64,000 bases of DNA from Caldilineaceae bacterium (GTDB taxonomy: Bacteria; Chloroflexota; Anaerolineae; Caldilineales; Caldilineaceae), in NCBI GenBank assembly GCA_958295845.1, contig OY282376.1, positions 4,911,022 through 4,975,021 of the forward strand, given 5' to 3'. Under the pieces are notes generated by a model. It made no database searches, had not been told where the DNA came from, and saw only the letters and a program-made list of their open reading frames with translations. Shown here piece after piece: positions 6,479 to 22,639 of the stretch (position 1 is its first letter; each line of letters starts with the position of its first letter). Position numbers and translations under genes: made by a program.

Positions 6479-6760
6479 TTAACCGCCCGCTGTAATGGCA
6501 AGCCGGATGTTCAGGGCTTCCAGAATCTTAAACAGCGTGTCAATCCGGGGGTTGCCTTCTTCCGAGAGCGCCCGGTAAAGCGACTGTCGCCCCACACCAC
6601 TCACTTCGGAAACTGAGGACATCCCTTTGGCGCGTGCTACATTGCCCAGGGCTTTGGCAAAGTACTTTGGGTCGTTTTCCGCCAGCGCCGCGTTCAGGTA
6701 TTCGACTAACGCCTCATCGCTGTCCAGGAAATCGATTACGTCAAGCTTCTTGAGTGTCAT
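6479..6760 (-). CDS. Orphan HigA2-type antitoxin (XRE/HTH)
   Basis: A 93-aa helix-turn-helix protein of the addiction-module antidote family. The N-terminal segment LDVIDFLDSDEALVEYLNA is followed by an XRE-type HTH (SEVSGVGRQSLYRALS, residues 51-66) and the end PRIDTLFKILEALNIRL. It is roughly 85% identical to the antitoxin at 9926-10207, but no toxin gene precedes it here. The ATG at 6760 is chosen because it aligns with that paralogue; an in-frame GTG lies five codons upstream. Without a toxin it may act as an anti-addiction factor or a free repressor. It sits between two copies of a dispersed repeat. Confidence 0.85.
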   Translation of the reverse strand: MTLKKLDVIDFLDSDEALVEYLNAALAENDPKYFAKALGNVARAKGMSSVSEVSGVGRQSLYRALSEEGNPRIDTLFKILEALNIRLAITAGG

Positions 6761-7003
6761 CGCTGAATTGGGCACTTTTCGGGTTCATGGGGAATGTAAA
6801 TGGTCACCGATGAATGATCATCTGGAACGTCAGTCGTTCCTGATTCATCTGTGTAACAGAAATCCGCGGGCATCCCTGGCAAAAGAAAAGCGACTAGGTT
6901 CGGGGGATAGGCCCCGATAAGAGACGCTTGGCGACTCTTCCCAGACGCACCCGAATCATACCACTGGAACCGGTGATGCCAAGAGTTTTCGGGTGGAGGG
7001 TCA

Positions 7004-8064: not shown

Positions 8065-9003
8065 ATGGACGATCAGAGCCGGCTGGATAATTTCTCGCTT
8101 GAAGGCGACCAGGTCGCGCTGCCAAAGGGGGCGTGGGCGCAGTCGCACCGGCTGAACGTGCGCTGGCAGGGCAAGGACCTCACCGCGCTGAGCCAGGGCG
8201 CCTTTCGCGCCTACCTGTTCCCGGTCTACACGCCGGCCGGCTTTGCCGTGACCAGCGAGTCGCCGCTCGACCATCCGCACCACAATTCCCTGTGGATCGG
8301 CGCCGACCACTTCAACTGCTATCTGCCCTATTCCAGCGGCGCGCTGGAGGAGGCCAACTATAACTTCTACGTCAACGACATCTTCCAGGGCCGGGCGCCG
8401 GGACGCATTCTGAACGTGGACGTAGACGCGGAAGAGGTGGCGGCCGACCACCTGCGGCTGGTGCAAACGCTGCACTGGCAGGGTCCGATCGAGTGGGGCG
8501 CGCCGCAGCGGCGCACACTGGCTGTCGAGACGAGGACGATCGACATCCGCCCCGGCGAAGTCGCCAACCTGTTCGACGTCCGCTCGCAGCTGCGCGCGGC
8601 CGAGTGGGACCTGCACATCGGGCCGACCCGCCACGCCTACTTCGGCCTGCGCATGACAGAGCCCCTGCGCGTGACCAGCGGCGCCACCATGGTCGATTCC
8701 GAAGGCCGCACTGGGGCCGCCGCCATCAGCGGCCAGGTGTCCAACTGGGTCGACTGTTCAGGCACAATCGCCGCCGGCAGGCGGGCGGGCGGGGCGCTGT
8801 TTCCGTATCCTAGCGCGCAAGGGTTCCCCTGGTTCGTGGCGGACTGGGGAACGTTGACAGTGAATCCGCTGGCAAGCAAGGGATATGCCTTGAAACAGGG
8901 GGATGTGCTGGATTTTGCCGTGCGCTTTGTGGTGCATGACGGGGATGCTGAGGAGGCAGATGTTGCGGGTTTGTGGGGGGCGTTTGAGGGGAAAGGACAG
9001 TGA
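8065..9003 (+). CDS. DUF6807 (PmoA-family) protein
   Basis: A 312-aa protein of the DUF6807 family, often labelled PmoA in annotations although it is not particulate methane monooxygenase. Recognisable parts are LDHPHHNSLWIGADHFN (residues 70-86), GPTRHAYFGLRMTEPL and the end PYPSAQGFPWFVADWGTL. The His-rich segment suggests metal or sugar contact; such genes often stand near sugar oxidoreductases, but the activity is unknown to me. The start is set by GGAGGGAGAGCC immediately before the ATG. Its last ~250 bp recur as a broken copy at 10614-10865, with toxin-antitoxin genes in between. Confidence 0.8.
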   Translation: MDDQSRLDNFSLEGDQVALPKGAWAQSHRLNVRWQGKDLTALSQGAFRAYLFPVYTPAGFAVTSESPLDHPHHNSLWIGADHFNCYLPYSSGALEEANYNFYVNDIFQGRAPGRILNVDVDAEEVAADHLRLVQTLHWQGPIEWGAPQRRTLAVETRTIDIRPGEVANLFDVRSQLRAAEWDLHIGPTRHAYFGLRMTEPLRVTSGATMVDSEGRTGAAAISGQVSNWVDCSGTIAAGRRAGGALFPYPSAQGFPWFVADWGTLTVNPLASKGYALKQGDVLDFAVRFVVHDGDAEEADVAGLWGAFEGKGQ

Positions 9004-9106: not shown

Positions 9107-9346
9107 ATGATAGGCAGAATATGGCCGGTTCAGGATGCCAAGTCGAAGTTTAGCGAGTTGTTGGATACCACGCTCGCCGAAGGGCCGCAGATCGTGACCA
9201 GGCGCGGGGTCGAAACCGCAGTGCTCCTTCCGATCGAGCAGTGGCGCAGGCTGGAGCAGATGACCAAGCCGGACCTGAAGGAGCTGCTCCTCGCTCCTGA
9301 GGCACGCACCGAAGACCTTACGCCGCCGCGTCGGCAATCATCATGA
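9107..9346 (+). CDS. Phd/YefM-type antitoxin
   Basis: A 79-aa antitoxin of the Phd/YefM family, which binds DNA with its N-terminus and neutralises a PIN or RelE-type toxin with its C-terminus. Diagnostic features are PVQDAKSKFSELLDTTLAEGPQ at the start and IVTRRGVETAVLLPIEQW. The start follows GGAG at seven bases. Its stop overlaps the ATG of a 28-codon toxin remnant (ATGA), which shows that the partner was once a FitB/VapC-type toxin. The gene itself looks intact, so it is an antitoxin left without a working toxin. Confidence 0.88.
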   Translation: MIGRIWPVQDAKSKFSELLDTTLAEGPQIVTRRGVETAVLLPIEQWRRLEQMTKPDLKELLLAPEARTEDLTPPRRQSS

Positions 9347-9426
9347 ACCGGCTGACTTTGGTCACTCGAAATATGAGTGACTTTGGTCAGTTTTGCGTGG
9401 AATTGCATAATCCCTTCGAAGCTTAG
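9343..9426 (+). pseudogene. Internally deleted PIN-domain toxin (FitB/VapC type)
   Basis: This 28-codon frame starts in the ATGA overlap with the antitoxin stop, the usual arrangement for these operons. It reads MNRLTLVTRNMSDFGQF and ends HNPFEA. LTLVTRNxxDF…NPxEA is the characteristic C-terminus of FitB/VapC-like PIN toxins. The start codon is thus preserved but everything between it and the last ~25 residues, including the first catalytic Asp residues, is gone. Too short to be active; I read it as the scar of an in-frame deletion. Confidence 0.75.
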
Positions 9427-9545
9427 CGCCAGTGACGACAACGAGCCAGAGACACCACCCGGTTCGATCCGGCGCGCCGGCGCGCTAGCGGTTTACGAGA
9501 CTGAGTTGCGGCACGCAGGCGAAACCTCTTTGCTGGAGGCAACTG

Positions 9546-9803
9546 ATGAATCTGAATATCAGCGACCCTGAGACCTGCCGGCTGGCCGATGAACTGGCCC
9601 GGCTGACGGGAGAAACGACTGCGGGCGCGGTTACAACTGCGTTACGCGAGCAGCTGGAACGCGAGCGGCGCAAACGAGACGCCGCTTTGCTGGCGCAGGA
9701 ACTACATACCATCGGACAACGCTGCGCAGCTCTCCTCGCGCCGGGGCCGGCTGCAGTCGAGCACAGGGACCTGCTTTACAACGAGCGAGGGTTGCCCGGG
9801 TGA
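9546..9803 (+). CDS. VapB-type antitoxin (Rv0623-like) without toxin
   Basis: An 85-aa antitoxin of the VapB family. Typical features are MNLNISDPETCRLADELARL at the start, TGETTAGAVTTALREQLERE as the DNA-binding/dimer helix, and HRDLLYNERGLPG at the end, the usual toxin-binding tail. The start follows TGGAGG. The stop overlaps a GTG (GTGA), where a vapC gene would normally begin, but the frame from that GTG closes after 38 codons with no PIN motif. I therefore see an orphan antitoxin, the second in a row on this strand. Confidence 0.85.
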   Translation: MNLNISDPETCRLADELARLTGETTAGAVTTALREQLERERRKRDAALLAQELHTIGQRCAALLAPGPAAVEHRDLLYNERGLPG

Positions 9804-9854
9804 TCTCTGACGTTCGCCTAGTGCGCAAATACTGGCGGCCTACACTTATCCGGG

Positions 9855-9893
9855 ATGAAAAAGTCCTCGCTGCCAAGACAGCGAGGACTTTAT
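9855..9893 (-). terminator. Terminator of the HigBA-type operon
   Basis: A perfect 12-bp stem (AAGTCCTCGCTG with CAGCGAGGACTT) and a six-base loop. On the minus strand it ends in a T-run (CTTTTTCATC), placing it about 35 bp beyond the antitoxin stop. Confidence 0.88.
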
Positions 9894-9925
9894 TCTATCA
9901 ACAGAGAGAGAACTGAAGGAGGCTG

Positions 9926-10207
9926 TCACCTGTTCACCGCGATTGAAAGCCGGATGTTCAAGGCTTCCAGGACTTTGAACAGTGTATCAATCCGGGGGTT
10001 GCCTTCGTCCGAGAGTGCCCGGTAAAGGGATTGCCGCCCTACTCCACTGATATCGGAAATAGAGGACATCCCTTTGGCGCGTGCTACGTTGCCGAGCGCC
10101 TTGGCGAAGTACTTCGGGTCGTTTTCCGCTAGCGCAGCGTTCAGGTACTCCACTAGTGCTTCATCGCTGTCTAAGAAATCGACTACGTCGAACTTCGTTA
10201 GTTTCAT
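9926..10207 (-). CDS. HigA2-type antitoxin of a complete toxin-antitoxin pair
   Basis: A 93-aa XRE-type antitoxin, second gene of a toxin-antitoxin operon. The HTH is SDISGVGRQSLYRALS (residues 51-66), preceded by FLDSDEALVEYLNAALAEND and followed by the helix PRIDTLFKVLEALNIRL. It follows its toxin by 24 bp, the toxin-first order normal for HigBA-like modules. It should bind both the toxin and its own promoter (family knowledge). A close paralogue without toxin lies at 6479-6760, so the module was duplicated. Confidence 0.92.
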   Translation of the reverse strand: MKLTKFDVVDFLDSDEALVEYLNAALAENDPKYFAKALGNVARAKGMSSISDISGVGRQSLYRALSDEGNPRIDTLFKVLEALNIRLSIAVNR

Positions 10208-10231
10208 CGCTCCTCCGTGAGAGTCTTTTTC

Positions 10232-10543
10232 CTACTGTTTATCTATTGAGCCTCCATCAAGTTCACTAACAATCTGCTGCGCTCGATTTATGTCTCTCTG
10301 TTGACTCGACTTATCCCCGCCACAGAGCAAGATTATCACTTTGCGACGTCGGATCACGTAGTAGACGCGATACCCCGGCCCGATGTGGATACGGAGTTCG
10401 CTAATCCCGCCACCAACCGAATTACTGTCTCCAAAGTTGCCATCTTCGATACGCTCAATGCGGGTCAAAATTGCGGCTTTGGCCTGCAGGTCACGCAGTC
10501 TCTTAAGCCACTTCGCGAAGAGTTCGGTCTGAAGGACTTCCAT
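10232..10543 (-). CDS. HigB/RelE-type toxin (addiction module killer protein)
   Basis: A 103-aa RelE/ParE-superfamily toxin, expected to cleave mRNA on the ribosome. It shows FAKWLKRLRDLQAKAAILTRI at the N-terminus, the core ELRIHIGPGYRVYYVIRRRK and the strand IILLCGGDKSSQQRDINRA, all typical of this group. Basic residues in the GPGYRVYY strand and the Lys in GGDKSSQ are the usual functional positions. The full-length pair with the downstream antitoxin and its own terminator suggests an intact module. Confidence 0.9.
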   Translation of the reverse strand: MEVLQTELFAKWLKRLRDLQAKAAILTRIERIEDGNFGDSNSVGGGISELRIHIGPGYRVYYVIRRRKVIILLCGGDKSSQQRDINRAQQIVSELDGGSIDKQ

Positions 10544-10613
10544 ACATCTATTGTCTCATATAAGAGACAGAGGGGCAACCTGGAAGAAAGATGAGGTTTG
10601 TCCCAGATTTTAG

Positions 10614-10865
10614 GTGGACTTCTCAAGCACAATCACGGCGGGCAGACAGGCCGGCGCGGCGCTGTTTCCGTATCCGAGCGCGCAGGGATTCCCCTGGTTC
10701 GTGGCAGACTGGGGGACGCTGACGGTGAACCCGATGGCGGGCAAGGGATATGCCTTGAAGCAGGGGGATGTGCTGGATTTTGCGGTGCGCTTTGTGGTGC
10801 ATGACGGGGATGCGGAGGAGGCTGATGTTGCGGGTTTGTGGGGAGATCTTATTGGGGAGGGTTAG
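10614..10865 (+). pseudogene. Duplicated 3' fragment of the DUF6807 gene
   Basis: About 250 bp match the end of the gene at 8065-9003 (8750-9003), including the encoded PYPSAQGFPWFVADWGTLT and the VVHDGDAEEADVAGLWG end. Homology starts abruptly at about 10613 with no upstream coding part. The two copies differ at many positions, so the duplication is not recent. The toxin-antitoxin segment lies between them. Confidence 0.85.
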
Positions 10866-11041: not shown

Positions 11042-11323
11042 CTAACTATCTCCTCCAGAGTGGTACACCTCGAATCGTAGTCTACGCTCCTGAAGCGTTT
11101 CCTCCTCATATTTCCAGTAGAGCGACCCTTGTACGGGGAATTCCAATTTACATGCCCGGCGCGCGGAAACGCTTAGACTTGTCACTTCCCCTTCGTACAC
11201 TACGTGCGCTGGGTACTGCTGGCAAACCACACAAGTGATGTCCTCATTTTCCGTCAACGAGAGGATGGCACCCAGAGGAACGCCGATCATTTCAAGGTTG
11301 ATTCTTGGCCTCTTTGTTGTCAT
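11042..11323 (-). CDS. Small protein of a type seen beside restriction systems
   Basis: A 93-aa protein. Its core YEGEVTSLSVSARRACK, then QGSLYWKYEEETLQERRLR, matches a small family I know from restriction-modification neighbourhoods (pattern YxGExTSLS…GxxYWxYxxExLxxRR), for which I have no function. The ATG at 11323 follows AGGG at nine bases; in-frame alternatives lie at 11332 and 11356. It is on the same strand as the defence operon, 184 bp beyond the DUF3644 gene, with an IS end between. It may be a small accessory or DNA-binding subunit (inference). Confidence 0.65.
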   Translation of the reverse strand: MTTKRPRINLEMIGVPLGAILSLTENEDITCVVCQQYPAHVVYEGEVTSLSVSARRACKLEFPVQGSLYWKYEEETLQERRLRFEVYHSGGDS

Positions 11324-11386
11324 TTCTTTCATCCCTAGAATCGTATGCACTTTCACTGAATTACACGGCTTCCCCTAGATCGTCGT

Positions 11387-11506: not shown

Positions 11507-12487
11507 CTACTCTCTGGAATAGTGATTGTCAAGTTCTCTAAGGATATTTGGATTATAGAATTGTTTATTGGCACTCTTGGGATTGTCGGGATCAAGGTAA
11601 CGAACTCGACAGAACTTCTCGTTCTTGAGGAGCGGTTTTCTAACACCGTGGTACTTTGAGTTTTCTTTAAAGTCTTTGTATCGCTTGCGACACCTATCTG
11701 TGAGTTCTCTATAGTCCCATGGGTAGTTTTCCCGAATTTGCACCTCAGTCATACGGACTTCGGTTGCATTAGGGTCATTCGTAACCCGAACTTCCGGCAC
11801 GTCCTTTGCCTTGGAACGCGTAAATCTCACCTCATAGTTGATCATGACAGCATATTCGGAATCGTACCTCTTCGTCCTCTCCTCAAGATGCTGCACATAT
11901 CTGAGAAAGTTCCTCTCCTCCCTGTTGAGAACGATGGCTTCCGCTTGTCGAGGCAACTCGACAAAGGAGAGAGGCATCAGATAGAAATTGAATTCGCTCA
12001 AATCGTGGGCAAACCACTCTTGCACAGTCAGGACGAAGTTTTTGAGGCTGGCAGCACCTATTTCCTGCAGGCTTTCCGCCAATCTTGATTCGGACTGATG
12101 AAAGAAATGGACGGAAATATCCCGTAACTCAAGCAAGGCATCTAAATTGTCCTTTGCAATTGGGTCCAAATGCCTTTGCGCGACCAGTTTTTTTGCAAGG
12201 TAGTCCAACCCATGGGTGAAGGGAATCCGTGCACGAGTGCGTTTGATTGTCTTTCGCTTGCTCTTGGACCCATCGCTATTCCTGCCGTATTCCTTAACAT
12301 AAAGGGATTGAATCCGGTTGCCATTTTCTTTCAGCCACTTCGCTTTGAGCAGTAATTCCCAGCCATTGATTGCCAAAATGCAAAAGGTTTCCGACCGGTA
12401 TGGAAACTCCGGCTTGTTATAAATCTCTATGGCGGCAACCGTCGCGGCAATCGCGCGGTCGAGCAACTCTTTGGAACGGGACTTCAT
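11507..12487 (-). CDS. DUF3644 domain protein of the defence operon
   Basis: A 326-aa protein with the DUF3644 domain in its N-terminal half: LLDRAIAATVAAIEIYNKPE, then ETFCILAINGWELLLKAKWL and LLELRDISVHFFHQ, all helical. The C-terminal part holds YPWDYRELTDRCRKRY, a predicted winged-helix-like segment common in this family, and ends with the variable FCRVRYLDPDNPKS. The start overlaps the methyltransferase stop by four bases (ATGA), so the two are translationally coupled. DUF3644 proteins often accompany restriction and phage-defence genes; a nuclease or regulator role is proposed by context only. Confidence 0.82.
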   Translation of the reverse strand: MKSRSKELLDRAIAATVAAIEIYNKPEFPYRSETFCILAINGWELLLKAKWLKENGNRIQSLYVKEYGRNSDGSKSKRKTIKRTRARIPFTHGLDYLAKKLVAQRHLDPIAKDNLDALLELRDISVHFFHQSESRLAESLQEIGAASLKNFVLTVQEWFAHDLSEFNFYLMPLSFVELPRQAEAIVLNREERNFLRYVQHLEERTKRYDSEYAVMINYEVRFTRSKAKDVPEVRVTNDPNATEVRMTEVQIRENYPWDYRELTDRCRKRYKDFKENSKYHGVRKPLLKNEKFCRVRYLDPDNPKSANKQFYNPNILRELDNHYSRE

Positions 12488-15400
12488 GCTCTTTCTTCCA
12501 CCACCGCTATCTCATTCTCCGACAGCCCATACAGATTATAGACTAGCCGGTCAATCCCCTTTTCCAACTCACTGGTATCCGTGAAGGGATCGGCCTCTTT
12601 GGCAGCTAGAATGCACTCCACTAACTGGATGAACCGATTCTGATCCGAGGCAGGGATTCTGGGGACGGGCAGTCGTTCGACATGTACTTTCTCCCAGTGA
12701 AAAGTACCCGTACCAGATGTTGGCAATGATCGACGCATATACCAGCCGACCAGCTTAGAGTTTAGCACAGCGCACAAGTACTTTAGCGAATTTCCTCGCA
12801 GCATGTAAACGGCATTCACACATTGATATTCATCCTTGACATAAGCCACCATTCCTTCGCTAGCCACTCGTCTCCAAAACAGCTTTGCCTTGGTGAATTC
12901 CTCATGGTAAGCACAATCTCGAAGGTTGTAAGGTGTTACGCCCTGGTCTTTTCTCTTTACTAAACTGCTATAGAACTTATCGAGGTGCTGTTTAACGCTC
13001 ATATAGTCGTTCACATCAACTGGAGGTACACACCCGTAACCGTTATGGGTATCAATTAGCCAGTGGTCGGCCCACTGTGCTTGGTAGCGTTGAATATCTT
13101 TACCGCGCATGACGCGTTTTATGATTTCCTTGGCTTTGGGATTCTCGGCTATTATCGCTTCTCTTGTATCTCTGTTGATGACAAAGGCGGGATTGTAGCC
13201 CGTCTTAATTCCATACTTAATGGATATATCCCACTCTTTCAGAGACGGGCCAGCAGCCTCCATCTTATCGATGATCTTTCGTTCGGTGGGCGACAGAGCA
13301 ATCCAATGTTTCTCGCCGTCGACGCGCAGTTGCCCCCAAACGCTCTGCTCAGGAGGAAAATGCTTGTCGGAGAGTCGATCCATATCTACGGCCAAGCTAC
13401 ACTCGCCGCTCTTGCCCGCTCGCACCATCAAGATGCTGGTGTCGACAATAGCATTTTCGAAGATGTCCTTGCCCATTTCTAACAACCGTAGCGGCGTGTG
13501 CCTTTTTGCAAGGTAGCGGCGCAAGGGCTTCCCGTATTCCGCCTTCAACCAACTGTTGGAGGTAATATACGATAGAAAGCCACGATCAGGTTCAAGCATC
13601 CGACATCCCTTCTCATAAAATAGCAGATAGATGTCACCAGTGCTGGCGAAAGTTGTATAGCCAGCGTCCTTGTAGAGTTTGCGCAATTTGCCACCGTCTT
13701 TGCTCAACTGGATATAAGGGGGGTTGCCAATGACCAGATCAAAGCCCCCTACAATTCCAAACATATAGCCGGCGTCAAACCAGTTGGCTTGGGCGTTCTG
13801 GTCGTAGGGATCCCAGCTGGAAATGTTGGCGGCGTCGGCCGCGGGCAAGCCAACGACTTGGTGCAAGGCGGTTGCCAGCTTGTCCCGCAATGCCCTATCA
13901 TGGTCGCGACAATTTTTTTTCTTTTGCCGCGTGGTGGCGTGGAAGTGGCGCTCGCGGTTGGCGTTCAGTTCTTCTTGCAGTTGGGTTACTTCTGGGGTTG
14001 TCAAACTCATCTGCATGCCGGATGTGTCCAGCGCCAACAGCGTATTGGCAGCCACGAAACGGGTTTCCAGATTGGGCAGCGGCTTGATTCCATAATTGTC
14101 AGCGATCTCCACTCCGGGCTCCTGCTCAATAGCCAGCGAGATAAAAAAGCGCAGGCGAGCGATCTGACAAGCGATCGGCTGTATGTCGACGCCGTAGATA
14201 CTGTTCTGGATCAGATATAGTTTGCGCCCAAAGTCGGAGCCGCGATACTTTCCGAAAGTGGCGCTGATCTCCTTCAGTTCGGCGTCTCGTTCAGCTTGGC
14301 CGCGTGTGTCGAAAGCCTTCTCGGCGCGCTGGATAGCCAATTCCTTTTGCAACTCTTCCCAGCGCTCATTTCTAGGATCAAGACGGCGCAAAGCAAGTGT
14401 CAGCTTGTGCAGCGCGCCCATGGGGAATGCCCCGGAGCCAACCGCTGGGTCGATCACCTTAATTCCAGCGATGGCACGGACAAGGCGTTTCTTTTCAATG
14501 TCGGTAAAGCGTTCTACGGCGTCGTCTTCGAAGTCAACTTCATAATCCAACAGATCAAGTAGGCGGTCTCGCCAGCTATCAGTATTGCCCTTTGACGGCG
14601 CGCACTTCTGTGCCAGAGACGTCACTATCGCCTCGTCCACCATATAGTCGACCACAGCACGCGGCGTGTAGAATGAGCCAGTCTGTTTGCGCGCATTTTC
14701 TTCGGTTTCTTCGACGTTGGCAGCGAGCAGATTCTCAAAGACTTTGCCCAACAACTCCGGGTCCAGCGCGACTTCCTGTTCGGTAGGCGTGTTCTCCTCG
14801 ACCGTGAACTGGAAACGGTCAAAAATGCTGATTAGTCCCTCGTTGTCAAAGAATAGGCGGTTGGGGATCGACAGGATACCGAAATCTCTGCTTCGTGGAT
14901 TAACCATGTTGTCAGTAAAGTAGTCAACGCGGTAACCGCCGTCCCTTGGCGCTTCAAAGCTGTCCAGACAGTCGAAGAGACCGCCGTTTATAAAGGGCGT
15001 CTTGGCAAACAATTCGAGAAGCCTATCGGGATCGGCAATCTCCGCCCTATAGCGGTACCGGGAGAAATCGCGGTGCGTCGTATTGTTTTCCTTGCTGAAA
15101 CCGCGCTCCCCAATCTCGCTGTTCAGGGTGGCAAAGAATAGGTTTTGCAGCACTGCCCGATAATAGGAATCCCCGTTTTCACAATCATAATTGCGCAGCA
15201 GTGTACCAATCTGCTCCTCGATGAACAGGTCCCGCGCGATCAGTCCCTTCTCCTTAATGAACCAGACGAACAACATGCGTGTGATGAGACGGATGACATG
15301 TACTTTGGGCAGGAGCGTATTGTCCTGATCGTCAGGAAATCTCGCCTCATCGATGGCACGCTCGAACCAGTCGAAAAGCCGGTTATAGAAGCTGCGGTTC

Positions 15401-16080
15401 AGTTCCTCAGTGTCGAGCGCGTCCAGCCAGGCGGCAAGCAGGCCGTCGAAGTTGCGCGGCTTGTGATGGAGGCCCATCCAGGATAGGCGCTCAGCTAAGG
15501 CAAGTTTTCGCAGAATTCGCAGATGAGCGGGGTGGGGATTGCCAATTTTGATTTCACGAATCAGTGAAACGCTGCCGAGTACGTTGCGAGTCCGGTCGCG
15601 CTTGTGCGGGCGACGGTGGACAAATGCAATGGTAAGCAGGTCTTCGGCCGTCCTGAACAACACTACCGTCGGCTGGCTCAACAGTTTGTTTACCTCGCGC
15701 GTGAGTTTGGCATATACCCCACGAGCGTAGTTCTTTCCTTGAAGCTCAACGGCGATAAACATGAAGCTGCGAGCGTCGCCTTTGTCGAATTCTCCGGTAT
15801 CGAGTAAGGAAGGCTGTGACTCGGAGATTTCGGAATCGGTAACTTGGAACAGGATGTGCACGGAGTTTGCCAGCTGACGGAATTGCATTCTCGATTGGGT
15901 GTCATCGTTTCGGGCGGACACACCCTTTATAAAATCGTCAACATCGCCGGACAATTCCAGAGTGCGGTCGCTACGGTAGCCCAATGTTTCGAGCAAGCGG
16001 CGCCCGCCCTCTACTAAATCGTCCTGTGGAAAGACTGCCAAAGTGGCCTCAATCTTTTCCAACAAACCGTGGGTTGTCAT
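12484..16080 (-). CDS. Eco57I/PglX-like adenine-specific DNA methyltransferase
   Basis: About 1198 aa. The N-terminal ~450 residues are a helical/mixed region with a segment (ELQGKNYARGVYAKLTREV, later AFVHRRPHKRD) known from this group and of unclear activity. The N6-adenine methyltransferase core follows: motif I DPAVGSGAFPMGAL near residue 545 and the catalytic NPPY (VIGNPPYIQ) near 785. The C-terminal third has a TaqI/Eco57I-type specificity region (YGIKTGYNPAFVI). I chose the ATG at 16080 because GGGGG precedes it and it clears the helicase stop by 17 bp; an upstream in-frame start at 16131 would overlap that gene. It should mark self DNA for the neighbouring helicase-nuclease. No PD-(D/E)XK motif is obvious. 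Confidence 0.9.
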   Translation of the reverse strand: MTTHGLLEKIEATLAVFPQDDLVEGGRRLLETLGYRSDRTLELSGDVDDFIKGVSARNDDTQSRMQFRQLANSVHILFQVTDSEISESQPSLLDTGEFDKGDARSFMFIAVELQGKNYARGVYAKLTREVNKLLSQPTVVLFRTAEDLLTIAFVHRRPHKRDRTRNVLGSVSLIREIKIGNPHPAHLRILRKLALAERLSWMGLHHKPRNFDGLLAAWLDALDTEELNRSFYNRLFDWFERAIDEARFPDDQDNTLLPKVHVIRLITRMLFVWFIKEKGLIARDLFIEEQIGTLLRNYDCENGDSYYRAVLQNLFFATLNSEIGERGFSKENNTTHRDFSRYRYRAEIADPDRLLELFAKTPFINGGLFDCLDSFEAPRDGGYRVDYFTDNMVNPRSRDFGILSIPNRLFFDNEGLISIFDRFQFTVEENTPTEQEVALDPELLGKVFENLLAANVEETEENARKQTGSFYTPRAVVDYMVDEAIVTSLAQKCAPSKGNTDSWRDRLLDLLDYEVDFEDDAVERFTDIEKKRLVRAIAGIKVIDPAVGSGAFPMGALHKLTLALRRLDPRNERWEELQKELAIQRAEKAFDTRGQAERDAELKEISATFGKYRGSDFGRKLYLIQNSIYGVDIQPIACQIARLRFFISLAIEQEPGVEIADNYGIKPLPNLETRFVAANTLLALDTSGMQMSLTTPEVTQLQEELNANRERHFHATTRQKKKNCRDHDRALRDKLATALHQVVGLPAADAANISSWDPYDQNAQANWFDAGYMFGIVGGFDLVIGNPPYIQLSKDGGKLRKLYKDAGYTTFASTGDIYLLFYEKGCRMLEPDRGFLSYITSNSWLKAEYGKPLRRYLAKRHTPLRLLEMGKDIFENAIVDTSILMVRAGKSGECSLAVDMDRLSDKHFPPEQSVWGQLRVDGEKHWIALSPTERKIIDKMEAAGPSLKEWDISIKYGIKTGYNPAFVINRDTREAIIAENPKAKEIIKRVMRGKDIQRYQAQWADHWLIDTHNGYGCVPPVDVNDYMSVKQHLDKFYSSLVKRKDQGVTPYNLRDCAYHEEFTKAKLFWRRVASEGMVAYVKDEYQCVNAVYMLRGNSLKYLCAVLNSKLVGWYMRRSLPTSGTGTFHWEKVHVERLPVPRIPASDQNRFIQLVECILAAKEADPFTDTSELEKGIDRLVYNLYGLSENEIAVVEERA

Positions 16081-16097
16081 TGCTAGCCCCCATTGTC

Positions 16098-19000
16098 TCA
16101 ATCGTTTTTCCGCGACAGAATCACCAACCATGTCACGAGTTCAAAATCTTCGGCGCTTCCCGGTGTCTCAGAGGATCTAGGCAGCTTGAAGTCGCTAGGA
16201 CCTTGTAGCCCCATCACTGCCATCTGGGTCTTGACATTGGTTTGGCCAACATGCCTTATGACGGCGTCGAGCAGGTTGTCGTAAGCGGACATGTCGGTGC
16301 CGTTCTCGGTTTCGCGATTGAATTCGTCGCACAGTTTGTGGATCGCCTCGGTCTTGCCAATGCTCAATTCCTGAAACAGATCAAGCGTCTGTTTGACGCT
16401 GGCACAGCCGTGACGAATCTTCCCACTGTCGCGCACGTGGACGATGTAGAAAGGGTGCACGGGGCTGGCGACTTGGGTCTGCTTGTCCTGGCTGGCATTG
16501 CGCTGGCGCAGTACCCAGATGACGCCTGAATCCTTTTCGCTGTCGACCACAGCGTACGCGCCCACGGCGGTCTGTTCAAGCTCTTCGCGATTTTTCTCCA
16601 GGTAATGCAGCAACTGTGTAAAGAACTGGTCGAGCGTAAAGTCGCTCATCGTCACGCCGTCGTCGGTTAGATCATCCAGGTCGAGGTCCTCATCCAGCAG
16701 TTGCTTCAGCTGCTGCGCCCGGAAGCTGAGTTCCCCCTCGATGCCTTCGTAGTTGTCGAGGGGGTTCTCGTCCCCACTGGCGGCGGCGTCGGCCAGCGCC
16801 ATGCGCGCCTCTACACGTGTCTGCAGTCGCAGATACTCCTCCATCTCCTCCGTGGGCCAGTAGTTTATCATGCGCACTGAGTCGCTCTGGCTGCCGATGC
16901 GGTCGATGCGGCCGAAACGCTGAATAATACGGATGGGATTCCAGTGGATGTCGTAGTTGAGAACGGTATCGCAGTCCTGCAGGTTCTGTCCTTCGGAGAT
17001 GCAGTCGGTCGCGATGAGGAGATCGATGTCGCAGCCACTGTCAGTGTCGCTGCGCCCGCGGGCTACCGGCGCGAAGTTGTCGAGAATACTGTTGAAGTTG
17101 TTGGGGACTGCTGCAGTAAGGGTGGCATCGCCCGAGACCATAGCCATGTTCAGATTCAGATTGCCCGCCAAGTCCTGCAGATTGTTGTAAAGGTATTCGG
17201 CGGTGTCTTTGAACGTCGTAAAGACCAACAGTTTACGGTTTTCGCAGCCATTGCGGTCGGTGGTCGGATTGGCGGCTCTATCTTTGATCTGCTGTCTGAT
17301 GCGCGCCAGCTTGCCGTCCCTTTGAGGCGTAATCTGCGCGACGCGGGCGCGGGCGTCGCTGAGCGTCTCTTTGTCCTGGAGCAAGTCCTTCTTCCAATTG
17401 CACAGGTCCAGATCGGCCAGATTGTAGGGATGGCGAGCGCGGTTGATCAAAAACTCCTCGTCGTCCTCGTCGTCGTCCGGCAGGATGTCGGCCTGGGAGT
17501 CTTCCCTATTCTGGCGGTTCTCATAGCGGTCGATCTTTTCCAGCAGCGCATCCATCTTGCCGATGGTGCGTTCCAGTGTCAGGGTCAGGGAATGCGCCGA
17601 GCTTTCCAGCCGCTTCAGAAAATTGGTGCGGATCATGGCGATAAGGAACTGTTCACGGTCGGCCTGATTAAAGTTGCGCGCTTTTTTCTCCTCTTCCAAC
17701 TGCTGCAAGCCCTTGTCGCTGACTACATAGTCTGATGGACGATAGATCGAGAGAGTGAACTCACTGATAAGCTCTGCCAGTTCCTTATAGGACAGACTCC
17801 TCTCCGCGTCGGTCGGTGGGTAGACGTTGACCGGTTTCTCTCGGTCAGGAAAGCGCCCTATGCGGTCTATCTCCGCTGCGTAGGACTCCTCGATGTGCCT
17901 CCGAGAGCGGGCGATGGATACGCCGCCGAGCAGCCGGTAAAAGTCGCTGCCTAGATTTTCGAGGAGTTCCTTCTTATTCCGTTGACCATTGAGCGGTGCT
18001 TGCGACTCCCACTGCTTGAATTGGGTCTGCGCCCGTTTCAGCACACCGCCGATGTCAGAAACCCCCAAACTTTCACGAAAGCTGTTCTGGCGATTCTCGG
18101 TCATCAGGTAGATCTGGTTGCGCAGATCGATCAGTGAGGTATTGACTGGCGTGGCCGACAGCATGAGGACCTTTGTCTTAACACCCTTGCTAATCACCCT
18201 GTTGATCAGCCTTTCGTAACGTTGGCCCTCGTGATTGCGGAAGTTGTGGGATTCGTCTATGACGATCAGATCGAAGTTTTGCCAGTTGAAGTTGGCAAGA
18301 TCTATGTCGCCGACTTTTCCACCGTCGCGAGAAAGATCAGTATGGGAGAGAAGGGTGTAAGCAAAGCGGTCATCGGTGAAAGGGTTGCGAGTGTGTCCAA
18401 TTTGGTCCAGGTAAAGCGACCAGTTCTCGCGAAGTTTGCGCGGGCACAACACCAGAACCCGTTCGTTTCTCAGCTCGAAATGCTTGATCACCGCCAGCGC
18501 GGTGTAGGTCTTTCCCAGTCCTACGCTATCGGCGAGAATGCAGCCATTGTGGCGTTCCAGCCTTGTAATCGCGCTGAGGGCGCCGTCCTTCTGGAACTGG
18601 TAGAGCGTGTTCCAGATTGCAGTGTCGCCGAGCTCCACATCGCCTATGCGGCCTTCCTGGGCGAGCCGGGCTTCGATATCGGCACGGAAGAGCTCGTAGA
18701 GCGTCTTGTAATAGATGAGTTCAGGAGCGTGTTCCCTGGCAATGCGACCAAGGGCATCCAGGACCTGCTGCTTGGCGTCGGTGGTAAGCTTGACGTCGGC
18801 CCAGATAAGGTCAAACCACTCTCGCAGTTCAGCGTAAGTCTCAGCATCGTCGCTGGCAAGGTTGATCTCGATGTTGGCGCGGGTGCTGGCGCCGAGGCCG
18901 CGCTGGGTAAAGTTCGAACTGCCGACAAGGCTGCGAATCGGCGAGGAGGTAAGGTAGAGCTTACCATGCAGAAAGTTTGCCTGGGCAATGGAACGAATAC

Positions 19001-19322
19001 TAACGGTGTCGCGGCCTACCCATTCGGCGCAGCGCTCGGCGAGAAACTTCTGTTGCAGGGCATGGTTGGGGATGAGGCCCTTTTCGGTCACGTCAAATGA
19101 CTTTGGCTCTGCGCTGCCCGGGTCGACGTCTTCTACCGAGGCCGGATCACCGAAGAGAAAGCGCACTTCGTCAACAGTGTCCAGAGCCTCCTCCAGTTGT
19201 GCGTAGCCGTATATGCTGAAATAGGCCGATACGAGGCGGAAAGCCTCGGCGCTCTGTAGATTCTTTCGCAAGTAGTCGGCGACGGTGTGGGTCCGATTAT
19301 CTATAATATGTTGGTATGCCAT
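16098..19322 (-). CDS. PLD-nuclease/SNF2-type helicase fusion of a defence operon
   Basis: A 1074-aa two-part protein. Residues ~20-190 form a phospholipase-D-like domain with the half-site HGKLYLTSS (His119, Lys121) and VGSSNFTQRG; PLD nucleases normally need two such sites and may dimerise. A superfamily-2 SNF2-type helicase follows: Walker A SVGLGKTYTALAV (Lys271), VIDESHNFRN, LSATPVNTSL, and C-terminal motifs TDCISEGQNLQDCD and QRFGRIDRIGSQ. It is the first gene of a three-gene operon with the methyltransferase and DUF3644 genes. By analogy with DISARM drmC/drmD it should translocate on and restrict unmodified DNA. This PLD-SNF2 fusion plus a lone methyltransferase does not match classical DISARM or BREX layouts. 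Confidence 0.88.
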   Translation of the reverse strand: MAYQHIIDNRTHTVADYLRKNLQSAEAFRLVSAYFSIYGYAQLEEALDTVDEVRFLFGDPASVEDVDPGSAEPKSFDVTEKGLIPNHALQQKFLAERCAEWVGRDTVSIRSIAQANFLHGKLYLTSSPIRSLVGSSNFTQRGLGASTRANIEINLASDDAETYAELREWFDLIWADVKLTTDAKQQVLDALGRIAREHAPELIYYKTLYELFRADIEARLAQEGRIGDVELGDTAIWNTLYQFQKDGALSAITRLERHNGCILADSVGLGKTYTALAVIKHFELRNERVLVLCPRKLRENWSLYLDQIGHTRNPFTDDRFAYTLLSHTDLSRDGGKVGDIDLANFNWQNFDLIVIDESHNFRNHEGQRYERLINRVISKGVKTKVLMLSATPVNTSLIDLRNQIYLMTENRQNSFRESLGVSDIGGVLKRAQTQFKQWESQAPLNGQRNKKELLENLGSDFYRLLGGVSIARSRRHIEESYAAEIDRIGRFPDREKPVNVYPPTDAERSLSYKELAELISEFTLSIYRPSDYVVSDKGLQQLEEEKKARNFNQADREQFLIAMIRTNFLKRLESSAHSLTLTLERTIGKMDALLEKIDRYENRQNREDSQADILPDDDEDDEEFLINRARHPYNLADLDLCNWKKDLLQDKETLSDARARVAQITPQRDGKLARIRQQIKDRAANPTTDRNGCENRKLLVFTTFKDTAEYLYNNLQDLAGNLNLNMAMVSGDATLTAAVPNNFNSILDNFAPVARGRSDTDSGCDIDLLIATDCISEGQNLQDCDTVLNYDIHWNPIRIIQRFGRIDRIGSQSDSVRMINYWPTEEMEEYLRLQTRVEARMALADAAASGDENPLDNYEGIEGELSFRAQQLKQLLDEDLDLDDLTDDGVTMSDFTLDQFFTQLLHYLEKNREELEQTAVGAYAVVDSEKDSGVIWVLRQRNASQDKQTQVASPVHPFYIVHVRDSGKIRHGCASVKQTLDLFQELSIGKTEAIHKLCDEFNRETENGTDMSAYDNLLDAVIRHVGQTNVKTQMAVMGLQGPSDFKLPRSSETPGSAEDFELVTWLVILSRKND

Positions 19323-19990: not shown

Positions 19991-20080
19991 TCGACTTGGA
20001 TCGACCTAGATCGACCTAGATCGACCTAGATCGACCTAGATCGACTTAGATCGACTTAGATCGACTTAGATCGACCAAAC
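19991..20080. repeat. Decamer tandem array TCGAC(C/T)TAGA
   Basis: Nine successive 10-bp units, four with TCGACCTAGA and three with TCGACTTAGA between boundary variants. All TCGA cores are exactly 10 bp apart. Confidence 0.95.
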
Positions 20081-20485
20081 CAGGATAATTGCATCGACTT
20101 GGGAAGAGGCCTCGATAGGCTGCCTGAATCGAATAGGTACCCCTTTTGGGCCCACAAGGGGGGCCGCTTTGTGGACATTCGAGGCGCACAAACTGAGAAG
20201 CCACTGCTCTCGCCCAAAGAAAATCTGAAGCCGAAGTAAGGCCGCTGTAAGTCTGTGAATTGCCCATACTTCATCTGCCGATACGCATCAGAGACGGCGA
20301 AGAAACATCTCCGAACTCAAGCATGTAGGGGCCAATAAAAGAGGAAACACGCCGACATAATCCGTCGCAACCCGCCCTAACCCAAGGCAATTGCAACGAA
20401 TGGGAACAGGCCTCGTGAGGCTGCCTGAATCGGCTGGAGGAACCGTCTGCGAACTCAAGAAAATAGTCAAAAAAAAGAAATCCCG

Positions 20486-20535
20486 TCGACTTACGTCGAC
20501 TTGCGTCGACTTGGGTCGACTTGGGTCGACCTAAC
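20486..20535. repeat. Decamer tandem array TCGACTTGGG-type
   Basis: Five 10-bp units with TCGACTTACG, TCGACTTGCG and TCGACTTGGG consensus, at the position equivalent to the first array but with a different unit sequence. Confidence 0.92.
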
Positions 20536-21071
20536 CCAGGATAATTGCATCGAATTCGGACAAGGCCTCGAAAGGCTGCCTGAATCCAAAAAGTACCCTT
20601 GGCAGGCCCACATTGTGGACATTCGAGGCGCACGAACTGAAAAGCCACTGCTCTCGCCCAAAGAAAATTTGAAGGCGAAAGCCGTCAGCTGAAACGATGT
20701 GAAATGCACCCAAAACGTCCTCCTGGAATCCATTAGGACGCCGAGGAACTGTTCGGTAAGACGCAAGATAGCGTCCCAAAAAACTGAAATTGGCGCGACA
20801 TACGTATACATTTGTATACATTTCGCGACATTTGTAGACATTTCGCGGCCAGAACACGGGCAAGCGAATCCAGCAATGACGAGTACCCGTTGACGTTTGT
20901 CACCAAAGCAATTAGTGGAAGAAAAATGCTCTTCCGCGGAGGGCCGCGCAGCCAACCATAGAAAATCCGTTACGCCTTCGGTGTTCCTGGCCGCCCTTCG
21001 CATGACTTCGCTAGTCGATTGGTTCTGTCTACGGCAACACGCAAGCGAGGAAAATCCCTGGTGGTAACTCT

Positions 21072-22240
21072 CGTCCAACGCTCATAGGAGACAACCTGCA
21101 TCGGCAAGGCCCCAGTCACAGCACATCAGGCAAATCCCATGAACTGCAGCGCAGACAACCCGAAAACGCTCGCATACACTCATAAACTCACGTACAACAT
21201 TCGTATCGACTCTCCCGCACCAGCGAGACACCCGCCATCCTGAAAATCCAATAAATCCAGCAAATCCTGATTCAGACAATCTCTCGAAAACACTCGTAAA
21301 CGCTCATGATCTCTCATAAACACTCGTCCAACGCTCATACGAGACTACCTGCATCGGCAAAGCACCGGTCACAGCTCATCAGGCAAATCCCGTGAACTTC
21401 AGCGCAGACAACCCGAATACGCTCGTAAACGCTCATGATCTCTCGTAAACTCTCGTCCAACGCTCATACGAGACAACCTGCATCGCAAAGGCCCCAGTCA
21501 CAGCCCATCAGGCAATTCCCATGAACTGCAGCGCAGTCAACACGAAAACGCTCGTAAACGCTCATGATCTCTCGTAAACTCACGTCCAACGCTCATACGA
21601 GACAACCTGCATCGGCAAGGCCCCAGTCACAGCCCATCAGGCAATTCCCATGAACTGCAGTCCAGACAACACCAAAACGCACGTAAACGCTCATGATCTC
21701 TCGTAAACTCTCGTCCAACGCTCATACGAGACAACCTGCATCGGCAAGGCCCCAGTCACAGCCCATCAGGCAAATCCCATGAACTGCAGCCCAGACAACA
21801 CCAAAACGCTCGTAAACGCTCATGATCTCTCGTAAACTCTCGTCCAACGCTCATACGAGACTACCTGAGTCGGCAAGGCCCCAGTCACAGCCCAGCAGCA
21901 AATCCCATGAACTACAGTGCAGTCAACCCGAAAACGCTCGTAAACGCTCATGAACTCTCGTAAACTCTCGCCCAACGCTCATACGAGACTACCTGAGTCG
22001 GCAAGGCCCCAGTCACAGCCCATCAAGCAATTCCCATGAACTGCAGCGCAGTCAACCCGAAAACGCTCGTGATCTCTCGTAAACTCTCGTCCTACGCTCA
22101 TACGAGACAACCTGCATCGGCAAGGCCCCAGTCACAGCCCAGCAGGCAAATCCCATGAACTGCAGCCCAGTCAACACCAAAACGCTCGTAAACGCTCATG
22201 AACTCTTGTAAACTCTCGTCCTACGCTCATACGAGATAAC
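21072..22240. repeat. 129-bp tandem array (eight or nine units)
   Basis: CGTCCAACGCTCATACGAGA-type landmarks start at 21072, 21325, 21454, 21583, 21712, 21841, 21969, 22089 and 22218. The spacing is mostly 129 bp; the first interval is about two units with a decayed middle copy. Each unit combines ACGCTCGTAAACGCTCATGA-like motifs, a CAGGCAAATCCCATGAACTG segment and a small inverted repeat TCTCGT/ACGAGA. Units are near-identical throughout, so this is not a CRISPR array. The last unit ends at the truncated DUF1016 gene. Confidence 0.93.
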
Positions 22241-22639
22241 ATGCGTCTCTTTTACATAAACTATTCTTCAGACAAGATTCTCCAGACGGTGTCTGGCAAA
22301 TCAAATGGCAGTTCCATCGAATTGCAGTTGAAGGAACTTCTCACAGCTTTCCCTCTGCCCTGGTCTGCTTACGTGCGGTTGCTGACGGTCAAAAACGTGC
22401 ATGCGCGTGAATTCTATGAGGAAGAGGCATTGCGGGGAGGATGGTCGATTCGTCAGCTTAACAGGCAGATCAATTCCCAATTTTTCGAGGGCACCGCACT
22501 GTCCAAGAACAAGGCGGCCATGTTGGCGAAGGAGGAAGAACCTCATCCAGAAGACCTCCTGATCCCTCAAGAGGCGATAAAAGACCCGTTCATTTTTGAG
22601 TTTCTCGACCTGAAAGATGAGTACGCCGACAGCAGATGA
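22241..22639 (+). pseudogene. Truncated DUF1016 (YhcG-like) nuclease, N-terminal domain only
   Basis: A 132-residue frame with the N-terminal DNA-binding domain of DUF1016: FPLPWSAYVRLLTVKN, REFYEEEALRGGWSIRQLNR, TALSKNKAAMLAK and the linker IKDPFIFEFLDLKDEYADS. In the family the C-terminal PD-(D/E)XK nuclease domain starts right after this linker; here a stop follows and no nuclease motif appears in later frames. The 5' end abuts the repeat array, so the ATG at 22241 was probably created at the junction. I see a gene broken at both ends. Confidence 0.85.

Follow-up and report, generated by a model that had tools for sequence, protein, structure and literature searches.

In design, the nearest named relatives of the operon described here are the Type-2 DUF499-centred BREX-related systems, which combine an HKD-SNF2 protein, an N6-adenine methyltransferase, DUF499 and DUF3780; the wider DUF499 group includes 'Hma' (PMC12839542). 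HEPN RNases have been reported as backup effectors in DUF499-centred BREX-related systems (PMC12839542), and HKD-SF2 effectors accompanied by a methylase have been described in CxC-ABC/Pbe systems (PMC10853773). In EcoprrI-PrrC, a HEPN anticodon nuclease is embedded in a type Ic restriction-modification (R-M) system and has been proposed to serve as a second line of defence (PMC3710099, section 10). Here we analyse an operon at positions 11507-19322 of a 64-kb stretch of a Caldilineaceae contig (the window, whose coordinates are used below unless a locus is named). Its three intact open reading frames (ORFs), all on the minus strand with operon spacing, encode a PLD (HKD) nuclease fused to a SNF2-family ATPase (gene 1), an Eco57I-type adenine methyltransferase (gene 2), and a DUF3644 protein (gene 3; Table 1). 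We consider it fairly likely that genes 1 and 2 form an ATP-dependent two-gene R-M system backed by gene 3, a predicted HEPN RNase, in a manner resembling EcoprrI-PrrC.

As in the Type-2 DUF499 systems, the presumed effector at the window locus has an HKD nuclease N-terminal to a SNF2 helicase and is paired with an N6-adenine methyltransferase. The locus differs in having a core of two genes and no DUF499 ATPase: the family (PF04465) has no match in the whole genome, searched as its single 5.40-Mb contig, and assignment to the DUF499-centred BREX-related or Hma systems was rejected. The likeness to EcoprrI-PrrC lies in a HEPN RNase gene placed inside an R-M operon, whereas DUF3644 is a different HEPN family lacking an ABC ATPase, and the window's R-M core is not type I, although DUF3644 does occur in type I operons elsewhere. 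PrrC and RloC themselves were also rejected as identities for gene 3, since the N-terminal ABC ATPase fused to HEPN was not found and its 326 residues match only DUF3644 in Pfam.

NgoAVII uses a PLD nuclease. In both CglI and NgoAVII, the nuclease is a protein distinct from the motor and is itself the subunit that recognises DNA (in part PMC5737866). The window locus shares with these systems an ATP-driven helicase-like motor and a separate methyltransferase, and its PLD region matches RE_NgoFVII (3.8e-6). Type ISP enzymes such as LlaGI and LlaBIII contain a comparable set of parts (nuclease, translocase, gamma-class adenine methyltransferase, and C-terminal recognition domain), but as a single chain with an Mrr nuclease, in contrast to the two proteins and PLD nuclease found here. 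Pfam returned no match to Type_ISP_C or ISP_coupler in the window proteins, with the type ISP locus L110 as positive control (L numbers denote loci fetched for comparison).

A sequence-only reading of this DNA had placed three same-strand genes at this location, separated by a 17-bp gap and a 4-bp overlap, and both the gene calls and the spacing held up. Pfam agrees on all three intact ORFs, gene 3 starts within a 4-bp overlap with the end of gene 2, and the likelier start of gene 2 (the ATG at 16080, giving 1198 aa) leaves 17 bp to gene 1. In PADLOC, the matching profiles are C3a139 'HKD+Snf2' for gene 1 (1.5e-113), REase_MTase_IIG for gene 2 (1.6e-136), and PDC-S19 for gene 3 (4.9e-131). Order and spacing of the three genes are repeated in another Caldilineaceae chromosome (L068), at 87% identity for genes 1 and 3 and with DNA flanking the operon that is ~92% identical to that of the window. 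The gene families and their order are also shared by a Latescibacterota locus (L071), at ~60% identity. Because the same order recurs in both, the three-gene arrangement is more than chance. In L071, the PLD-SNF2 gene and the intact methyltransferase gene are separated by an inserted AIPR gene and an incomplete copy of the methyltransferase (L071:2868-6213).

The wider distribution of the genes is nonetheless that of a pair. Using gene 2 to search 400 Chloroflexota genomes, we fetched 16 methyltransferase-anchored regions; all 16 contained a PLD-SNF2 homologue close to the methyltransferase, in most cases directly next to it with an overlap, and none contained DUF3644. For this reason the conserved unit, as judged by gene content, is genes 1 and 2, and it is widespread. 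Outside Chloroflexota, where prevalence was judged from plasmids and from the DUF3644 scan described below, the pair is present on Parabacteroides, Nostoc and Lactococcus plasmids (three other phyla), partly in a different order. A scan of viral contigs with gene 1 gave one weak relative only. The full set of three genes recurs in L068 and, with insertions, in L071, but not in the 16 Chloroflexota regions; as a defining unit the trio did not survive, since the core is the first two genes and DUF3644 moves among R-M types or is often solitary.

What lies beside the core varies: we found an SMC-like ATPase with Fic, a STAND ATPase with Fic, GmrSD, Schlafen-AlbA and TIR, AbiC, and AIPR. The arrangement resembles a restriction core accompanied by a variable slot in which additional effectors can sit; here DUF3644 would occupy that slot. 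It is very unlikely that the three genes instead encode a single obligate complex, with DUF3644 as a structural or a regulatory (RNA- or DNA-binding) component and not a toxin. Such a complex would agree with the order and spacing kept in L068, with the order kept in L071, and with the winged-helix-like secondary structure at the C-terminus of gene 3, but close PLD-SNF2/methyltransferase pairs (56–61% and 48–59% identity) are entirely without DUF3644, and the RNase motif of the family is invariant.

Gene 1 matches, besides RE_NgoFVII, the Pfam families PLDc_2 (2.8e-9), SNF2-rel_dom (8.3e-12), and Helicase_C (1.2e-13). Its motifs H119-G-K, GSSNF (GSxN), DSVGLGKT (Walker A), DESH, and QRFGRIDRIG (arginine finger) are conserved among relatives. 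When relatives with an identifiable partner are divided by that partner, the PLD HxK is intact in 28 of 28 PLD-SNF2 proteins paired with an Eco57I/MmeI-type methyltransferase (the window protein included) and lost in 11 of 11 that accompany type III Mod/Res and DUF4391 (L013-L017, L186-L191). The latter are accessories of type III R-M systems on E. coli, Acinetobacter, and archaeal plasmids. They constitute the nearest sister group of the window protein (35–42% identity, same PADLOC profile C3a139), from which they differ in the lost HxK and in their partners Mod, Res, and DUF4391. In a tree of the helicase part, the type III group stands beside the window's group with one partner change, so the 11 cases of HxK loss go back to one or two events in evolution and are not independent of each other. 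Such a pattern agrees with the PLD site having been lost after a Res subunit took over as nuclease, and because HxK is kept with methyltransferase partners and lost with type III, we regard the PLD domain as the probable restriction nuclease. This partner-dependent loss offers a natural experiment on which subunit cuts DNA.

A different assignment would place the nuclease at the N-terminus of the methyltransferase, which would then be a type IIG restriction enzyme in its own right, and would make PLD-SNF2 an accessory. The best PADLOC profile of gene 2 being REase_MTase_IIG speaks for it, as does the alpha-beta secondary structure of the N-terminus; no fold was assigned from the full-length model (pLDDT 39). 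Pfam, however, finds no nuclease family in residues 1-450 of gene 2, the 'FxxAVEL' strand carries no E-x-K in relatives, and the PLD motifs are conserved only where another nuclease partner is absent. We therefore hold this assignment to be highly improbable.

In Pfam, gene 2 combines Eco57I with a TaqI_C target-recognition domain (4.5e-14), and its motifs DPAVGSGAF (DPAxGSGAF, motif I) and NPPY (motif IV) are conserved among relatives. DNA identity to L068 is 86% in gene 1, 84% in the 5' half of gene 2 (14044-16028), and 87% on the gene 3 side (11509-12555). Between these well-matching flanks, positions 12556-14043 have no DNA match in L068. The proteins encoded by gene 2 and its L068 counterpart are 93–99% identical at residues 201-500, and 21–36% identical inside the swapped segment. 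A clean replacement of ~1.5 kb comprising the recognition half is, by this comparison, the usual signature of a change in restriction specificity, and the swap is typical of R-M systems because the recognition half alone is replaced between nearly unchanged flanks. The proposal of a restriction-like system, made before these comparisons, stands at the level of sequence: adenine methyltransferase motifs I and IV occur together with a recognition domain, and the nuclease and motor active sites are conserved. In two further loci (L060:7104-12830 and L062:5641-10755), an inverted second target-recognition domain lies beside the methyltransferase gene together with a phage-type integrase, which suggests switchable (phase-variable) specificity in the same R-M family.

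Gene 3 matches DUF3644 alone in Pfam (1.5e-46; 158.7 bits vs. a cut-off of 27.6), a family named as HEPN in 2013 (PMC3710099). All 80 aligned relatives have both R122 and H127 of its R-x4-H motif. The predicted structure has a mean pLDDT of 84, with a C-terminal region that is winged-helix-like by secondary structure. Its top structural matches were mostly HEPN-superfamily proteins or uncharacterised homologues, the best being 2hsb (Z 11.4, rmsd 2.7, 123 aligned), and MntA-HepT toxins and Csm6 were among them. Foldseek alone returned nothing under E 0.001 for the gene 3 model. Because helical bundles call for caution and Foldseek by itself had no significant match, motif and fold were used together, and on that combined basis gene 3 is probably a HEPN-fold RNase.

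A scan of 84,980 species genomes for DUF3644 yielded 80 loci in many phyla, and the contexts were diverse. DUF3644 lies between hsdS and hsdR of type I systems in L063, L076, L084, and L088, the embedded order being hsdM-hsdS-DUF3644-hsdR with 4-bp overlaps. It is the third gene after SNF2 and an MmeI-like methyltransferase in L083 and L122, follows a type ISP enzyme by 7 bp in L110, and adjoins another methyltransferase in L078; elsewhere it is solitary. Plasmid copies are either solitary or without PLD-SNF2. By context and phylogeny, then, DUF3644 is a swappable accessory of predicted HEPN type that is exchanged among several R-M types and often stands alone. A Caldilineaceae metagenome-assembled genome (L069:4524-10834) carries a DUF3644 that is 82% identical to that of the window and lies beside GmrSD, with a type ISP methyltransferase and not PLD-SNF2 nearby. 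Such different neighbours at 82% identity imply that the partner of DUF3644 changes quickly.

Among members with usable context, R-M operons account for 23 of 41 in one half of the DUF3644 tree, which is a supported group, and for 0 of 33 in the other (Fisher 3e-8, for rows that are not independent). R-M types are mixed within the R-M-linked half. In eight of the fetched copies, the overlap with the R-M gene upstream is exactly 4 bp. Together with the split between clades, these short overlaps argue for coupling between gene 3 and R-M in the window's branch of DUF3644. These data bear directly on the main rival explanation, namely that DUF3644 is a self-contained abortive-infection gene (PDC-S19) that senses phage itself and travels with an ordinary two-gene R-M system. 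Autonomy of this kind would account for the many solitary copies, which include all of one tree half, for the plasmid copies that are solitary or without PLD-SNF2, and for the single-gene candidate profile that PADLOC holds for the family. It is harder to reconcile with the grouping of R-M-linked copies in one supported half, with the exact 4-bp overlaps onto upstream R-M genes, and with the copies placed between hsdS and hsdR, and we judge it possible but unlikely. Also possible but unlikely is the idea that the R-M-linked clade is a generic plug-in suicide module sensing the failure of type I, type ISP, SNF2-MmeI, and PLD-SNF2-Eco57I machines alike. A common signal, for example unmodified or cut DNA, might be read by the winged-helix-like C-terminal domain of DUF3644, and a shared signal would make DUF3644 exchangeable between restriction machines.

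Under the two-gene R-M reading that we favour, the methyltransferase would mark host sites with N6-methyladenine through its C-terminal target-recognition domain and would double as the recognition module. The PLD-SNF2 protein would be recruited to unmarked sites and translocate at the expense of ATP, and its PLD domain would cut the DNA at unmarked targets. The putative RNase encoded by gene 3 would be silent while the restriction complex is intact and be released when a phage inhibits or overwhelms restriction. Once freed, it would cleave cellular RNA and stop growth, a last-resort suicide like that of PrrC behind EcoprrI. Several observations weigh against this scheme. In the window protein, a serine stands where the PLD HKD motif canonically has aspartate, and the N-terminus of the methyltransferase may contain a second nuclease. 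DUF3644 lacks the ABC ATPase that controls PrrC and RloC. Finally, about half of the DUF3644 proteins that belong to the R-M-rich tree half lack an adjoining R-M gene, for which reason DUF3644 is probably able to act alone.

Two further defence systems were also compared. With DISARM (class 1, DrmD and DrmMI) the locus shares a SNF2-like helicase beside an adenine methyltransferase, but it has no DrmA-DrmB, and its PLD domain is fused where that of DISARM is separate. The only DUF1998/MZB match in the genome is a 962-aa ORF ~780 kb away, with none at the locus, and gene 1 scores 144 bits with DrmD profiles, against a curated cut-off of 610. For BREX, PglZ (PF08665) has no match in the whole genome and PglX scores 74.6 bits vs. 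a cut-off of 500; BrxC was given no dedicated search, and apart from genes 1 and 2 no ORF in the interval from 5 to 28 kb exceeds 600 aa. The sequence-only reading was thus correct that the locus is neither DISARM nor BREX. Its description of the system as unclassified was right in part: we found no named two-gene system of PLD-SNF2 and Eco57I type in the literature searched, outside which lie preprints and most subscription papers. On the other hand, PADLOC already models each protein singly, and the pairing of HKD-SNF2 with an N6-methyltransferase has been described in the Type-2 DUF499 systems (PMC12839542).

As far as sequence can tell, the locus is a real and well-conserved restriction-type operon; known kinds of parts are combined in it in a new way, without amounting to a novel form of immunity. 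Annotation tools treat its widespread core as two separate items, a candidate helicase and a type IIG enzyme. Because DUF3644 is exchanged across unrelated R-M types, the long-standing question of how restriction complexes restrain HEPN toxins can be tested in a compact operon of three genes.

Table 1. Coordinates of the operon and its features in the 64-kb window.
Feature	Position	Strand	Size or basis
Gene 1: PLD (HKD) nuclease fused to SNF2-family ATPase, predicted restriction subunit	16098..19322	-	1074 aa
Gene 2: Eco57I-type adenine methyltransferase with TaqI_C target-recognition domain	12484..16131	-	1215 aa from first ATG
Gene 3: DUF3644, predicted HEPN ribonuclease with C-terminal winged-helix-like region, swappable accessory	11507..12487	-	326 aa
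PLD nuclease domain of gene 1, residues 24-174, HxK at 119-121	18801..19253	-	PLDc_2, RE_NgoFVII
SNF2-type helicase/translocase module, gene 1 residues ~246-820	16863..18587	-	SNF2-rel_dom, Helicase_C
TaqI_C specificity domain, gene 2 residues 1007-1156	12664..13113	-	Pfam 4.5e-14
Allele-swapped specificity segment, gene 2 residues ~696-1192 (motif IV half and target-recognition domain)	12556..14043	-	Comparison with L068
HEPN R-x4-H motif of gene 3, R122-DISV-H127	12107..12124	-	Alignment of relatives

A small ORF of 104 aa (11042-11356) had been suggested as a possible further member of the system, which the comparisons did not support. It matches only the C-terminal half of the PADLOC candidate PDC-S57 (2e-17), its region does not align in the syntenic locus L068, and no relatives were found in fetched loci outside the window's own genome. 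By these comparisons the gene is probably an unrelated truncated remnant.

Toxin-antitoxin genes adjoin the operon at 9107-10543 (a Phd/YefM antitoxin, and an HI1420-like antidote with a Gp49/ParE-type toxin), and a near-identical copy of the antidote lies at 6479-6775. At 10598-10865, a fragment repeats the C-terminus of the 312-aa gene at 8065-9003; it is a scar left by duplication or insertion at the defence island's edge. Just upstream of the operon is a tandem array of ~9.3 copies of a 129-bp unit (21066-22244), together with 10-bp arrays at 19991-20076 and 20484-20530, and similar repeats are also present upstream in L068.

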